Source of the DNA: Pseudaestuariivita rosea
GTDB lineage: Bacteria > Pseudomonadota > Alphaproteobacteria > Rhodobacterales > Rhodobacteraceae
Length of the DNA stretch: 64,000 bases
Direction of reading: 5' to 3'
Assembly (NCBI RefSeq): GCF_017592335.1
Contig: NZ_JACNMP010000002.1
Coordinates: 236,901 to 300,900 of the forward strand
A program made the translations under genes and the position numbers. The notes under the pieces were generated by a model. The model was given only the letters and a program-made list of their open reading frames with translations. It had not been told where the DNA came from and ran no database searches. Shown here one piece after another: positions 19,730-63,847 of this stretch. The first letter of the stretch is position 1, and each line of letters begins with the position of its first letter.

Positions 19730-20923
19730 ATGACTGTCGCCCCTAATGTCTACGATGCCGAACCCATTCCTGACGCAGCACGTGCGGAAATTGACCGCTT
19801 GCTGAAATCCGGTGATCTGTTTCGCTACACGGCCCCATCGGACGCGCCGGTGGCCTTGCTGGAAAAAGAATTCGCGGAACTGATGGGCACGGATTACGCG
19901 CTGGCGGTGTCGTCCTGTTCGGCGGCTTTGTTCTTATCTTTGAAGGCTTTAGGGTTGTCGCGGGACGCACGGGTTCTGATCCCGGGCTTCACATTTGCGG
20001 CGGTGCCGTCGTCGGTGGTGCATGCGGAATGTAAACCTGTCCTGTGTGAGGTCGGCGAGAATTATCGCATTGATATCAATGATTTCGAGCGCAAGCTGGA
20101 TCAGGATATCAGCGCCGTGATCATCAGCCACATGCGCGGGCACACCTCGGACATGGATGCGATCATGCGCCTTTGCGATGCGCGCGATATTCCTGTGATC
20201 GAAGATGCCGCCCATTCCCTTGGCACCACGTGGCACGGCAAAAACATTGGGACGATAGGGCGCGTTGGCTGTTTTTCGTTTCAATCCTATAAGTTAGTCA
20301 ATGCGGGCGAAGGCGGGATCATGGTGACCAATGATCCCGATCTGGTTGCACGGGCGGTGATCATGTCGGGCGCCTATGAGCATAACTGGAAAAAGCATCC
20401 TGTGCTTCATGACAATTTTTCCAAGTGGCAGAACAAGTTACCGCTTTATAACCTGCGGCTGCAAAACCTGTCGGCGGCGGTGATCCGGCCGCAGTTGAGT
20501 GAGGTGGCGCGGCGGGTGCGGGATGGGCGGGCCAATCATGATTATGTGGCGGGGGAGTTGAACAGGTCGGATTGGTTGTCGGTGCCGGATAAACTGAGCG
20601 CGGAGGAGCGGGCGCCGGACTCGATCCAGTTCAATCTGGTTGGGATGAGCGACCGGCAAACCCTTGATTTTGCGGCGGAATCCAAGGCGCGGGGTGTCAG
20701 TGTGCAGGTCTTTGGGCTAAGCGATGACAATGCGCGGGCGTTCTGGAACTGGCAATTTATCGACGACCTGCCCGAGCTGCCGCAAACGCGCGCGATGCTG
20801 ATGCGGGCCTGCGATGTGCGGCTGCCCGCACGCCTGAAAAAACCTGATTTAGACTTTATTATCAATGCCTTGACGGGCGCGGCTGAGCAGGTGATGGGGC
20901 CAAAAACAGCCCTGGCCAGTTAG
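19730..20923 (+). CDS. DegT/DnrJ/EryC1/StrS-family PLP aminotransferase
   Basis: A 397-residue fold-type I enzyme. SSCSAALFLSLKALG (61-75) binds the cofactor phosphate, EDAAHSLG (158-165) stacks on PLP, and Lys188 in SYKLVNAGEGG is the Schiff-base lysine. Relatives transaminate keto-sugars for surface polysaccharides or antibiotics. No sugar-nucleotide genes adjoin it, so its substrate is open. Third-position G becomes denser after about 20440, a mild change of style inside the gene. Confidence 0.88.
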   Translation: MTVAPNVYDAEPIPDAARAEIDRLLKSGDLFRYTAPSDAPVALLEKEFAELMGTDYALAVSSCSAALFLSLKALGLSRDARVLIPGFTFAAVPSSVVHAECKPVLCEVGENYRIDINDFERKLDQDISAVIISHMRGHTSDMDAIMRLCDARDIPVIEDAAHSLGTTWHGKNIGTIGRVGCFSFQSYKLVNAGEGGIMVTNDPDLVARAVIMSGAYEHNWKKHPVLHDNFSKWQNKLPLYNLRLQNLSAAVIRPQLSEVARRVRDGRANHDYVAGELNRSDWLSVPDKLSAEERAPDSIQFNLVGMSDRQTLDFAAESKARGVSVQVFGLSDDNARAFWNWQFIDDLPELPQTRAMLMRACDVRLPARLKKPDLDFIINALTGAAEQVMGPKTALAS

Positions 20924-21573
20924 AGGTTTCGCCCGCGGGTCAAGACGCAACGTCATCAAAGTTAACCCGCCGTTCTATGATGTTTTTGAATGTGCAATTT
21001 GCACATTTTCCACAAAACCGGGCAATTCAGATGTGCAATTTACACATTTTTCGCGGGATTTGCCGTGATTTCCTGATTCCCGCAGATTTTTCACGAAATC
21101 GCCCTGTGGATAAGTTTGATGTCAACGCGCGCGGTCCCGTCAGACATCTTTAACAAACTGCCCGAATTAACCATTTCCGCGGGTCATTAACGCATCATAA
21201 ATCGCACCGCACGGTGCCAAACTTTGCAACTTTACAAAAATCGAATCAAAAACTTTGCAAAGTTTGCAGTGTTAAGGTTTGGGTAAGAAAGTTGAGATGT
21301 CGGCTATGAGCCCACAATCACGGTTACTGCACTCGGACCGAATGTCAGCGATGCGTAGGAAGCGGACTTTGCATAGTCAAGCGTATGGCCTATTCCAGCT
21401 ATTCATTCACCGATCAACATGCTCCAGTGCATCGATTCGTCGAACGCCTACGGTAGGTTTCGCCAACTTGCTAAAACGAGCAATGCGGTGTTAGGCTCTA
21501 TCATGAGTTGAATTGACCTAAATCGGCTTTCAGATCGTTAGTTGGGGACAATTTCGTTTTGTATTTTTGAACG
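20924..21573. other. Gene-poor 650-bp region with paired palindromes
   Basis: No convincing gene lies here. It holds two copies of the ATGTGYAAWTYRCACATTT palindrome (20990 and 21031), a lone DnaA-box match TGTGGATAA at 21105-21113, several TTAA half sites (near 21167 and 21187) and an AACTTTGCAA-type repeat near 21222-21268. From about 21280 the base composition falls toward that of the DUF4365 gene. A 71-codon frame at 21279-21494 has no ribosome site and no family resemblance. Confidence 0.5.
20990..21050. promoter_or_regulatory. Paired 20-bp palindromic sites, 41 bp apart
   Basis: Copies at 20990-21009 and 21031-21050 share ATGTGCAATTTRCACATTTT. The core TGTGCAATTTGCACA is nearly perfect dyad symmetry. 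The start-to-start distance is 41 bp, about four helical turns, which suggests two dimers bound on one face of the DNA. The same pair with identical spacing recurs at 63787. The binding protein is unknown. Confidence 0.6.
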
Positions 21574-23118
21574 GTGAAAAAATTGGATCAACGAAAAGGA
21601 CGACCAGCCGAAAAGTATTTCAGCCTGTTGTGTTCCAAAGCAAACATCACTTGCAATAAGTCGGAAGAGGACGACCATGGATGGGATTTCCTTGTTGAAG
21701 TGCCGATGCCGACAGCCGAGGGGCGATCAGCCGACTTAGTTGGCGAAATCCGAAAATGTGAGGTTCAAGTCAAGGCATTAGAAAAGGGAAAGCCCGTGGT
21801 GAAGCTTAGCTTGAGCAATGCGCGCGCCTTTGCCAAAAGCCATCTACCTTGCTTTATCGTCGCTATCTTGGATCAAGACTCTCCTCATCCACGCGTCTTT
21901 ATCCGACACTTTTGGGAAAATGAGATTGAGCGGTCTCTCAAACGAGTGCGAGAGGCTGGAAATCAAGGTAAACCGCTGAACAAAACGTACACGCAATTCA
22001 CTTTGTCGGAAACCGAAGATAGGTCGTCGGATCCTATTGGCTGGCTCGTAAAGGAGATACAGAGCCTGTCACAGGACTACATCGGTGAAAAGCGGAGGAT
22101 AGAGAAATCAGTCGGATATGATGAGGGAAGTTGGAAAGGCGAGGTGAAATTTGGACCATTAGAAGGAATAGAAGAGCTTGTGGATCATCAGCTCGGTCTA
22201 ACTGACAATATACCGGTGGAGTTTGTTAGCATGACCGAGACTCGATTCAATATCCCATCGTCGCCGGCCATTTTTGCGGGAAAACCGAGTTTTGCAAGAA
22301 TGCGCTCTCAGGCAACGAAAGCATGCCAACTTGTCCTTCGTTCAGAAGGAGGCGCGTCCATGACCGTAGACGCAACGCTTACAGCACCAACAATCCCCGA
22401 CTTACCACCTGAGGCCATGAAGGTACGCATCGATACATGGTTTTCCAGTTTTGTGGTGTCAAATGGCAAGAAAATTCATTTTGACCTGAGTCTCGACTTT
22501 GATGCGATACTTACTCTCCGGCAGCTGAGCCAGTTTTTTCAGTTACTATCTTGGTCGGAAATGGGCCCAATTTCGTTCAGCATAATCGGTGACGGATTTC
22601 CAATTGCGGAGGGCCAAATGAAACTGGGCCAAGGGCAAGACGATATCTCTTATGTTAAGCCCTCGAATATGATTTCGAAGCTGCTTGATATAACGCATCG
22701 GTCGGGTGTAGAAATGCCGTCTTTGTCTCCCGCGTCGCTAGGGAGAAATTGGGCAAAATGCGCTCAATTCTACAATTACCTGATGACCGATGGCGCAGAG
22801 CTAAAGGTGACCTTGGATCGAGTCATCTCGCCAGATTTATCGCCTCAGTGCATGGTGGGGTTCATTGAATTGGACCTTGAGACTGCTGCTTTTCTGGCGG
22901 TTCTGGAGTTCCCAGTGAAGTCCGAAGAACGCAGTGGAAATGATATGAGCTTTTCTTTAGCTGCACCTTTAATTCGAGATTGCTACGTGGGCTCAAGCGC
23001 TAAAACCGTGCGTAAACTTGGTGAAAGGCAAAGTGCCGAGTTTGGGGGACGGACCGGAAAAACAATAATTAAGGTCGGAAGTTTGTTCGATCACCCTACT
23101 GACATTCTTCAGCGGTAG
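21574..23118 (+). CDS. DUF4365-like protein of unknown function in a low-GC island
   Basis: A 514-residue protein with a GTG start one codon after an in-frame stop and no clear ribosome site. The first 150 residues (GRPAEKYFSLLCSKANI, DDHGWDFLVEV, CEVQVKAL, AFAKSHLPCFIVAI) follow the DUF4365 pattern, a PD-(D/E)xK nuclease-like fold: E/D, then D in the WDF strand, then Q-x-K. The remaining 360 residues are not recognisable and have no helices that look membrane-bound. Its GC content and codon use are clearly lower than the neighbours, which suggests transfer. DUF4365 domains occur in defence and mobile contexts, but no partner gene is visible. Confidence 0.6.
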   Translation: MKKLDQRKGRPAEKYFSLLCSKANITCNKSEEDDHGWDFLVEVPMPTAEGRSADLVGEIRKCEVQVKALEKGKPVVKLSLSNARAFAKSHLPCFIVAILDQDSPHPRVFIRHFWENEIERSLKRVREAGNQGKPLNKTYTQFTLSETEDRSSDPIGWLVKEIQSLSQDYIGEKRRIEKSVGYDEGSWKGEVKFGPLEGIEELVDHQLGLTDNIPVEFVSMTETRFNIPSSPAIFAGKPSFARMRSQATKACQLVLRSEGGASMTVDATLTAPTIPDLPPEAMKVRIDTWFSSFVVSNGKKIHFDLSLDFDAILTLRQLSQFFQLLSWSEMGPISFSIIGDGFPIAEGQMKLGQGQDDISYVKPSNMISKLLDITHRSGVEMPSLSPASLGRNWAKCAQFYNYLMTDGAELKVTLDRVISPDLSPQCMVGFIELDLETAAFLAVLEFPVKSEERSGNDMSFSLAAPLIRDCYVGSSAKTVRKLGERQSAEFGGRTGKTIIKVGSLFDHPTDILQR

Positions 23119-38572: not shown

Positions 38573-39871
38573 TTAGACAGCTTCGACGACGGCCAGCAGT
38601 CGGTCCTGGGCCGAAAGATCGGCGAATTTACGGACCTCTTGCAGCTTGGTGCGGTGCAGGTTGTCCAGCAGTTGTTGGGGAAAGATGCGGGCCAGAAACT
38701 GGTCTTCCAGCGCCCTGATCGCGCTTTGCCAGTCGGTGTGCAGGCCCGGCAGGTCCTGAGCGTAGGCGTTGCCGGTGATAGGCGCGGGCGGATCAGTGCG
38801 ATCTTCGATCCCGATAAATGCAGCCCCCAGAATGGCGGCCAGCATCAGATAGGGGTTCACATCGCCACCCGCGACGCGGTGTTCGATCCGGCGCGCGTTG
38901 GGTGGACCAGCGGGGATGCGCAGGGCCACTGTGCGGTTGTCATAGCCCCAACAGGCGGCGGTGGGCGCGTGTGAGGCATCGACAAACCTGTCGTAGGAAT
39001 TCTGGTGTGGTGCAAAGAACAAGGTTGACGGCGCCATGGCCTGCAGGCACCCGCCAATCGCGTGTTTTAAAAGGTTATTTCCCATGGCACTTCCATCGTC
39101 AAAGATGTTTTCGCCGCTCTGATTAAGGACGGAAAAATGCACATGCAGACCGTTGCCCGCATCCTGTTCAAAGGGCTTGGCCATGAAGGTGGCGATCAGC
39201 CCGTGTTTGCGGGCTAGACCTTTGGCTAGGGTCTTGAATAATAATGTATTATCGGCGGTTTGCATGGCGTCGCGGTGGATCAGATTGACCTCAAACTGGC
39301 CAGTCCCGCATTCCGACATCGCGGCCTGGGCGGGGATGTCCATTGCCTGACAACCACTGTATAAGTCGTTGAAAAAACTTTCAAAATGATCTAGCTCGGC
39401 TAGCGACAGGATGTTGTCCGACGGATAAAGCGCGGCACTTGCGGGTGCTGAAAGCTGGATGTCGCGGGCCAGATAGAACTCAAGCTCGGTCGCTGCCTGG
39501 ACTGTCCAACCTTTTTGTTCATATTTATCAAGGATTTGTGCCAGGCAATGCCGCGAATCTCCGGCAAAGGGCTGACCATCTTCGCGATACATCCATTGCG
39601 GGATCAAGTGGCCGGGTTGGTCCAGCCAGGGCATGGGAACAGGGCCGCGGTCGGTGGGGTGCAACACGCCGTCTCGGTCGCCGGTGGCGAAGAGGAGCGG
39701 GCTGTTTTCGATGTCAGCGCCGAAGATGTCGACGTTCAGAGCCGACAGCGGCATCCTGTTGGTTTTATTGGCGAATTCCTGCGGCAGACGCTTGCCTCGC
39801 CACTGACCGTTCAGGTCAACGACACCGATGCGCAGGGGGGCGGGCTGATTGGACATGGGGCTTTGTGGCAT
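38573..39871 (-). CDS. Glutamine synthetase-family ligase, PuuA-like (gene 2)
   Basis: A 432-residue GS-fold enzyme from the ATG at 39871 (MPQSPMSNQPAPLRIG); an ATG at 39856 is an alternative and neither has a strong ribosome site. LHVHFSVLNQSGENIF, HQNSYDRFVD and CWGYDNRTVALRIPAG (about 245-340) match the gamma-glutamyl-amine ligase group. It is clearly a paralogue of gene 1 but well diverged, so the two may use different amines. A palindromic site lies 140 bp upstream. Confidence 0.87.
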   Translation of the reverse strand: MPQSPMSNQPAPLRIGVVDLNGQWRGKRLPQEFANKTNRMPLSALNVDIFGADIENSPLLFATGDRDGVLHPTDRGPVPMPWLDQPGHLIPQWMYREDGQPFAGDSRHCLAQILDKYEQKGWTVQAATELEFYLARDIQLSAPASAALYPSDNILSLAELDHFESFFNDLYSGCQAMDIPAQAAMSECGTGQFEVNLIHRDAMQTADNTLLFKTLAKGLARKHGLIATFMAKPFEQDAGNGLHVHFSVLNQSGENIFDDGSAMGNNLLKHAIGGCLQAMAPSTLFFAPHQNSYDRFVDASHAPTAACWGYDNRTVALRIPAGPPNARRIEHRVAGGDVNPYLMLAAILGAAFIGIEDRTDPPAPITGNAYAQDLPGLHTDWQSAIRALEDQFLARIFPQQLLDNLHRTKLQEVRKFADLSAQDRLLAVVEAV

Positions 39872-40010
39872 AAGATTGAGGTCGCGGAAATACCCTGAAA
39901 ACAACGGCTTGGCGCGTATTGTGTGTTTTGCCACAGGTGCGGGGTGGGGGCTGTGAATGAAACAAACGCAACGTCGTGAAAGTAAAGACACCGTGCGGTG
40001 GCCATATCGC

Positions 40011-40030
40011 ATGTGCAAATCGCACATTTT
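40011..40030. promoter_or_regulatory. Single copy of the palindromic site
   Basis: ATGTGCAAATCGCACATTTT matches the paired sites at 20990 and 63787 over 20 bases. No second copy lies 41 bp to either side. It is 140 bp upstream of the PuuA-like gene 2 start and 15 bp from repeat copy B. Confidence 0.55.
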
Positions 40031-40044
40031 TGGGGTTTTCAGAG

Positions 40045-40090
40045 GTGGCCCGCGGCGCGTTTGCGCCACCCTCGGGCCGGCGCTGCCCTC
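40045..40090. repeat. GC-rich intergenic repeat, copy B (partial, inverted)
   Basis: About 46 bp whose reverse complement contains GAGGGCAGCG and CGAGGGTGG, the left part of copies A and D. It has its own small hairpin (GGCGCGTTTGCGCC). It lies just downstream of the 3' end of the permease gene ending at 40139. Confidence 0.5.
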
Positions 40091-63352: not shown

Positions 63353-63715
63353 TTACATGAAGCCCAGTTCAAGTCGGGCTTCGTCAGACATCATATCCAT
63401 GCCCCATGGGGGTTCCCATGTCAGTTGCACATCGACCTGTTTGACACCTGCCAGGGGTTCGATCGCCTCGGCCAGCCATCCGGGCATTTCACCGGCCACA
63501 GGGCAGCCGGGGGCGGTCAGGGTCATTGTGACGCCCACCTCATTTTCATCATTGATTTCAATGGTATAGACAAGCCCCAAGTCATATATATTGACCGGGA
63601 TTTCGGGATCATAGACGGTCCGACAGGCCTCAACCACGCTGTCATAAAGTGCGTGGTCTGTGCTGGACGGTTTGATAAGCGGTTCGCCTTCCAGGGGCGG
63701 AGTTGCCTGGGTCAT
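63353..63715 (-). CDS. sufT: SufT-like DUF59/MIP18 iron-sulfur assembly protein
   Basis: A 120-residue protein. VYDPEIPVNIYDLGLVYTIEI (near 34-54, in parts) contains the D-P-E-I-P motif, and MTLTAPGCPVAGEMP (near 64-78) the conserved Cys of the MIP18 family; WEPPWGMDMMSDEARLELGFM ends it. SufT helps mature Fe-S proteins. Two palindromic sites lie 72-130 bp upstream of its start. Confidence 0.88.
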   Translation of the reverse strand: MTQATPPLEGEPLIKPSSTDHALYDSVVEACRTVYDPEIPVNIYDLGLVYTIEINDENEVGVTMTLTAPGCPVAGEMPGWLAEAIEPLAGVKQVDVQLTWEPPWGMDMMSDEARLELGFM

Positions 63716-63786: not shown

Positions 63787-63847
63787 ATGTGTAAATTACA
63801 CATTTCTATATACAAGAGCAAAATTAAATGTGTAAATTGCACATTTT
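63787..63847. promoter_or_regulatory. Paired palindromic sites upstream of sufT
   Basis: ATGTGTAAATTACACATTTC at 63787-63806 and ATGTGTAAATTGCACATTTT at 63828-63847 have the same 41-bp start-to-start spacing as the pair at 20990. The nearest site is 72 bp before the sufT start codon, in a normal position for a regulator of that gene. Confidence 0.6.

Follow-up and report, generated by a model that had tools for sequence, protein, structure and literature searches.

Repetitive extragenic palindromic (REP) sequences favour the gaps between convergent genes, according to a passage of PMC1525189, and the protein GapR of Caulobacter is associated with gene 3' ends, according to part of PMC8510090. 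For the Rhodobacteraceae, an excerpt of PMC4618611 describes the Iron-Rhodo-box in all 12 genomes then available. Here, we describe a palindrome family of Pseudaestuariivita rosea, found in a window of 64,000 nucleotides (the whole stretch analysed, C22:236901-300900, which ends at a contig end) of its 3,893,358-base, 87-contig genome. We think it probable that these palindromes are operators of DUF6502 proteins (PF20112) and that, in P. rosea, they have spread to 30 further loci, mostly gene 3' ends in recurrent intergenic elements, as docking sites and not as promoter switches.

Paired palindromes at DUF6502 promoters

A strict 17-mer derived from the P. rosea genome alone was detected in 12 of 394 family genomes, with 40 copies in P. 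rosea, two in its sister species and one or two elsewhere; a relaxed form was detected in 19 of the 394 genomes, with 46, four and at most two copies, respectively. DUF6502 is present in 43 of the 394, and 11 of the 12 genomes with the strict 17-mer have DUF6502 as well as a site just upstream of DUF6502. The P. rosea gene adjoining the native sites, at C34:74081-74800, matches PF20112 at 39.3 bits (cut-off 27).

Upstream of 46 DUF6502 loci outside P. rosea, we searched with a relaxed pattern composed after these regions had been viewed. At least one site (at most two mismatches) was present at 27 loci (shuffled sequences: mean 0.4, maximum 3), and a pair was present at 20 loci, in all cases spaced 46-49 bp (shuffled sequences: 0). 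The 20 pair-bearing loci represent 20 genomes and 20 genera, including the sister species, in which the native spacing is 47 bp. Moreover, the native P. rosea locus has three sites, spaced 52 and 51 bp; in total, at least two TGTGYAWWWTRCACA-type palindromes are present at the DUF6502 promoters of these 20 of 46 loci and of P. rosea. A maximum-likelihood tree of 47 proteins places all 21 pair-bearing proteins within one branch of 22 (support 100/99). The stretch between the two sites holds, in most of the 20 loci, a TTGAC-type motif for a lipoprotein-like gene and a CTTGC-type motif for DUF6502; judged by eye, the frame that spans the pair starts lipoprotein-like in 19 of 20 loci, while the frame found in L159 does not.

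The predicted DUF6502 model contains helix-turn-helix and winged-helix-like parts (pTM 0.53), and the solved structure closest to it is that of HetR, with a weak match. DUF6502 is thus predicted to be a DNA-binding regulator, and from the structure prediction together with the position of the sites we infer that DUF6502 dimers bind the palindromes. Pfam gives no function for the family, and both the operator and the DNA-binding fold are predictions proposed here; our literature search found no paper naming DUF6502 or the searched forms of the palindrome.

In a world-wide scan for ATGTGCAAATTGCACAT, which may omit P. rosea records, 79 loci were found, nine of them in Rhodobacterales. In five of the nine (L045, L067, L081, L108 and L116), a second site is present and a DUF6502 gene adjoins, identified with Pfam in L067 and L116 and by eye in the others; the other four are in the sister species (L050), at a MarR promoter (L076), inside a gene (L057) and intergenic (L068). 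The 70 other loci were scanned for a second site only, and a degenerate one was present within 150 bp in three (L056, L059 and L070). Among the family genomes, sites in genomes without DUF6502 or away from DUF6502 are in argS-like coding sequences (sister genome G001, C55; G101), in a nadD-like coding sequence (G362), at a MarR promoter (G239) and, in one case, intergenic (G090), all gene names being assigned by eye.

The distribution of the palindrome bears on the Iron-Rhodo-box, which the initial annotation had put forward as a candidate. Such a site, or that of another known iron regulator, would fit a 19-bp palindrome in the right family as well as the 63787/63828 pair upstream of an iron-sulphur assembly gene; however, no more than 12-19 of the 394 family genomes contain the palindrome, and most spread sites follow genes in which no iron role is visible by eye. 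The Iron-Rhodo-box was rejected on its distribution, i.e. 12/394 and 19/394 genomes versus all 12 described in the excerpt of PMC4618611, and we give any iron-regulator site next to no chance.

Copies across the P. rosea genome and their spacing

The 19-mer palindrome gave ten matches in the window at up to three mismatches, counted on both strands because the 19-mer is a near-palindrome, while in 100 dinucleotide shuffles the matches averaged 0.14 and never exceeded 2. The initial annotation had located five 19-mers, including two pairs; all five were recovered at the coordinates given there, and both pairs are spaced exactly 41 bp. Genome-wide, the 15-mer core (at most two mismatches) gave 88 forward matches compared with 14 for the reversed control. 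Among the matches listed, we inspected a set of at least 31 loci with at least 55 sites (at most one mismatch to TGTGYAAWTTRCACA), from which L169, with a degenerate site, was excluded. Thus, the palindrome family is real, as had been proposed, and the inspected copies are intergenic and regularly spaced instead of scattered within genes at random spacings. A CRP-type site was rejected: such a site is TGTGA-N6-TCACA, with eight bases between TGTG and CACA, while the exact sites among the matches listed have seven.

More than one site is present at 19 of the inspected 31 loci, and the distances between neighbouring sites (n=24) are 41 bp in 20 cases, 51 bp in two and 52 bp in two, with no others. 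With a helical repeat of 10.5 bp, the distances of 41, 51 and 52 bp correspond to about 3.9, 4.9 and 5.0 turns; they would put the sites on the same side of the helix, a layout that cooperating dimers would be expected to have, in agreement with the helical phase suggested in the initial annotation.

Eleven of the 20 spacings of 41 bp fall in ten homologous elements, referred to below as type A, and are therefore non-independent. The spacers of the other nine have a mean identity of 0.32 over the inner 18 bases (highest value 0.61), compared with 0.27 after shuffling. At three of the nine, the element flanks are partial or diverged, i.e. L022, a diverged type A element (69%), L028, which retains a piece of the type A left end, and L032, which retains the shared end module; the remaining six (L027 twice, L033 twice, L029 and window 63787) are in loci without an element-flank match. 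Because the nine spacers outside the ten type A elements are dissimilar, the spacing seems to be more than plain copying. In total, the sequences suggest that the 41-bp spacing recurs beyond simple copying, and a far-back common origin of some of the pairs may remain.

Intergenic elements behind genes

When the palindromes are masked, 26 of the 30 spread loci have 450-bp flanks that match one of two intergenic elements, type A or type B, at an E-value of 0.001 or better, two of these matches being weak (L032, 8e-5; window 40011, 2.8e-4). In the same search, no match to either type was found at L027, L029, L033, window 63787 or the native DUF6502 locus. Type A, of ~380 bp, runs from TTACCCAAACCTTAAC through TTGACA, TTATCCACA and the palindrome pair to an end near GTTAACTTT-ATGACGTTGCGTC, and its copies are mostly 80-88% identical over up to ~380 bp, with one diverged copy at 69%. 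TTATCCACA corresponds to a DnaA-box consensus; GANTC sites are present near it in type A copies, and the elements could titrate DnaA. Type B, of ~200 bp, has TTGAC and the end module in common with type A, and contains GTAC-rich motifs and a single palindrome; the GTAC-rich motif GAATCGTA is present in 12 of 12 type B copies, hybrids included. L025 and L034 are hybrids in which a type A left part is joined to a type B right part, and in L025 a second site follows at 52 bp. The excluded L169 (C46:83600-85600) is also a hybrid A/B element, in which the palindrome has decayed to two mismatches.

The palindrome is the best kept part of type B, with a conservation of 0.949 in its columns compared with 0.627 outside and 0.919 in the best outside window. 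In type A, it is among the best kept parts (0.969 compared with 0.815 outside).

By reading of the open reading frame table, the GACGTTGCGTC end faces a gene 3' end in 23 of 26 orientable elements, among which L028 and L032 are partial; the exceptions are L006, L022 and window 40011. Among the 25 spread loci at which both flanks could be called, 17 are convergent, eight are tandem and none is divergent, the calls at L003, L019 and L031 being uncertain; this count does not include L014, L026, L028 and window 63787, all at contig ends, or window 40011 and the native locus. The genes ahead of the elements include those for methylmalonyl-CoA mutase and a DegT protein (Pfam) as well as ClpP, PurD, AlaS, CtaA, GcrA and others (by eye). 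An ordinary regulon was rejected because the neighbouring genes have no visible common function and 0/25 callable loci are divergent. For the same reasons, and because the spread copies are mostly behind genes, these copies probably are not promoter switches.

Placement behind convergent genes, between flanking A and T tracts, would also be compatible with palindromes that act as RNA, i.e. as bidirectional transcription terminators or as hairpins at the 3' ends of the adjacent genes. Folding energies are -8.9 kcal/mol for a single site (L018) and -17.6 to -35.8 kcal/mol for five multi-site loci, partly through site-to-site pairing. However, the arms of 47 sites, read in the mRNA direction of the gene facing the element, are perfect in 30 cases and deviate by G-U pairs only in seven, by a C-A mismatch in nine and otherwise in one, i.e. 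there is no RNA-strand preference; a terminator scan of window 20700-21600 did not report the palindromes; and the same palindrome is paired at divergent DUF6502 promoters. The terminator or hairpin reading was rejected on the mismatches and the silent scan of this one region, and we consider it highly improbable. In Rfam searches of six loci, no family was found on the elements; the two hits were a bacterial small signal recognition particle RNA near the DUF6502 locus (L023, 954-1050) and a miRNA family over the native sites far below the gathering score.

A more serious alternative is a non-autonomous interspersed repeat, REP-like or similar to a miniature inverted-repeat transposable element (MITE), that is selfish or passive and in which the palindrome is kept for spreading and not for DUF6502 binding. 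The identity of the type A copies, the element flanks at 26 of 30 spread loci and the positions behind genes or between convergent genes, which resemble those of REP sequences in the passage of PMC1525189, support this alternative. So does the sister genome (G001), in which the palindrome (at most two mismatches) is absent within 450 bp past the stop codon of 23 of 24 matching genes and present after one. In this comparison, 27 gene pieces were searched and 24 used, with L006 (a 5' piece), L009 (matched at just 41%) and L012 (unmatched) dropped; some pairs may not be orthologues because they were paired by best match at 49-97% identity, and the comparison is weak for L027, where the P. rosea sites too begin 438 bp after the stop. 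The flanks in the sister have diverged too strongly to give a clean empty-site junction at which a target-site duplication, as of a MITE, would be seen.

By contrast, 41-bp pairs are also present at four loci, L027, L029, L033 and window 63787, that have no element flanks, and the same palindrome is paired at DUF6502 promoters in 20 genera. Moreover, the window copy has no terminal inverted repeats, the inverted repeats there being internal (other copies were judged by eye), and the REP-associated tyrosine transposase (RAYT) domain PF01797 gave no match in the genome, whereas it was detected in five of 14 control genomes. REP elements driven by RAYT were rejected on this absence; some REP-bearing genomes are without a RAYT-type transposase. 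In total, docking or titration is the role that we favour; the chief rival, which we regard as unlikely, is a repeat that is selfish or passive.

A BLAST search of the sister genome with the window type A element gave one full element and one short match at the native DUF6502 promoter. The full element, like that in L011 (from C11:207397), is behind a methylmalonyl-CoA mutase gene (G001, C4:63924 onward). Element and gene are 91-98% identical over ~2.4 kb, after which identity is 65%, and further along the syntenic block it is 63-92%; to the left of the element, the compared stretches share no more than a 62-bp match. Ten of 11 other P. rosea/sister gene pairs are 70-80% identical, and one is 92% identical. 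The idea of a founder inherited in the sister, with its single type A copy as ancestral, was dropped because of the 2.4-kb block with its drop to 65%; on the same grounds, it is likelier that the shared element was exchanged between the lineages, in either direction, than that it was inherited. Counter to exchange, two later windows of the same syntenic block are also 90-92% identical. Contig C56 (L028) is likewise 92% identical to L175 over 1.7 kb.

The features of the window are listed in Table 1. The suggestion in the initial annotation that the target at 20990 may be a short gene or an RNA missed by annotation is not supported: this pair sits in a repeated intergenic element that starts ~20 bp past the stop codon of the DegT-type gene, and Rfam gave no family on the elements in the six loci searched. 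Full-length matches of this type A copy elsewhere in the genome are 82-88% identical. The flank of the 40011 site matches the element at 80% over 35 bases, and this site lies upstream of the glutamine synthetase-like gene because the real start of that gene probably is as given in the table. By eye, a second G+C-rich intergenic repeat (CCCGGTGG...CACCGGGCAGCGCCCGACCCGCC) adjoins several elements (left flanks of L001, L012, L017 and L024; window ~40045-40090), and transposase-like genes adjoin elements at L016 and L025.

Table 1. Palindromes, elements and neighbouring genes in the 64-kb window
Feature	Position	Strand	Remarks
DegT/DnrJ/EryC1 aminotransferase-domain gene	19730..20923	+	3' end faces type A element
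Type A intergenic element bearing the 20990 pair	20944..21313	read on -	ends placed by eye from alignment
Palindrome, pair 1, first	20990..21008	+	core TGTGCAATTTGCACA
Palindrome, pair 1, second	21031..21049	+	core TGTGCAATTTACACA; 41 bp after first
TTATCCACA, DnaA-box-like	21105..21113	-	found in 10/10 type A copies
TTGACA hexamer	21120..21125	-	kept in type A copies
Next open frame	21574..23118	+	weak DUF4365 match, under Pfam cut-off
Glutamine synthetase-like frame	38573..40069	-	true start probably near 39856 by inspection
Truncated element	39966..40034	-	palindrome and end module common to types A and B; named type B remnant by eye
Single palindrome	40011..40029	+	core TGTGCAAATCGCACA
Iron-sulphur cluster assembly protein (PF01883)	63353..63715	-	63787/63828 pair 72 bp upstream of start
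Palindrome, pair 2, first	63787..63805	+	core TGTGTAAATTACACA
Palindrome, pair 2, second	63828..63846	+	41 bp after first; flanks without type A or B match

Proposed role and known systems

At the native locus, DUF6502 would repress its own promoter as well as the divergent lipoprotein-like gene, as suggested by the promoter-like motifs between the sites. In the relatives, a site spacing of about 4.5 turns would suit back-to-back promoters; in P. rosea, spacings of 41 and 51/52 bp would let two dimers share one helix face and cooperate, and the native three-site operator is in phase with the spread 41-bp pairs. Our proposal for the spread copies is that they titrate DUF6502 or serve to organise DNA where transcription ends, and that selection maintains the palindrome. 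By analogy, a topological role for the spread sites is conceivable because of GapR at gene 3' ends and the preference of REP sequences, as described in parts of PMC8510090 and PMC1525189. Our literature search gave no precedent for regulator operator pairs spread behind genes.

Several observations weigh against DUF6502 operators that spread as phased docking sites. Islands elsewhere in type A are as well conserved as the palindrome (best outside 16-column window, 0.976). Type B has one site (two in one hybrid) and, therefore, pairing is dispensable in type B. The pair is missing at 26 of 46 DUF6502 loci, and L151, which is inside the pair-bearing branch, has no upstream site. Because the native spacing in the relatives, at 46-49 bp, is ~4.5 turns, the one-face argument is confined to P. 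rosea and the single element copy of the sister. For the DUF6502 model, Foldseek gave no match at an E-value of 0.001 or better, and the VIA Z is in the range that this tool calls common; a sequence search for a solved DUF6502 structure found none (best E-value 0.13). Finally, two MarR-type regulator promoters, named by eye, carry similar pairs at 47 bp (Paracoccus alkanivorans L076, 4584/4631; G239, L205, 931/978), so that the motif is not exclusive to DUF6502.

The latter pairs raise the alternative that a MarR-type regulator, instead of DUF6502, binds the palindromes in P. rosea. These are two cases versus 20 DUF6502 loci, and the P. rosea DUF6502 locus itself has three sites; we consider binding by a MarR-type regulator improbable. 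Returning to DUF6502, a further-reaching proposal, which we regard as speculative and rather doubtful, is that one species made the self-control operator of a HetR-like DUF6502 into a genome-wide net of helically phased sites behind genes. This net would organise the chromosome in a sequence-specific manner or act in titration, would be coupled in type A to a perfect DnaA box, and would have arisen in one lineage in which the native operator was re-spaced from 47 bp, as in the sister, to 51/52 bp, the phase of the spread pairs.

For a family of unknown function, these data provide a predicted role, that of a DNA-binding regulator, together with a concrete candidate binding sequence and its natural operator variants from 20 genera. 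They also provide a clear case of a likely operator multiplied in a repeat family to places unfit for ordinary promoter switching, which opens to test the origin of new binding networks or nucleoid sites as well as whether repeats titrate regulators.

Among known systems, the Iron-Rhodo-box, the IscR site of Rhodobacteraceae, is similar to the P. rosea palindrome in length and family but differs in distribution and neighbouring genes. HetR, the regulator of heterocyst formation, is the closest solved structure to the DUF6502 model and binds palindromic DNA according to entry titles; however, the structural match is weak and HetR is absent from the sequence matches of the DUF6502 profile. DUF6502 itself, for which Pfam describes no function, is encoded next to the native P. 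rosea sites and, in other genomes, next to the pair at 20 of 46 loci. Unlike MITEs, the P. rosea window copy is without terminal inverted repeats. From REP sequences and bacterial interspersed mosaic elements (BIMEs), the P. rosea elements differ by their A+T-rich palindrome, a likely regulator operator, by the fixed 41-bp direct pairing, by the larger modular elements and by the lack of PF01797, but they are similar to these sequences in being extragenic, palindromic, multicopy, near gene 3' ends or between convergent genes, and present in this form in one species among those searched.
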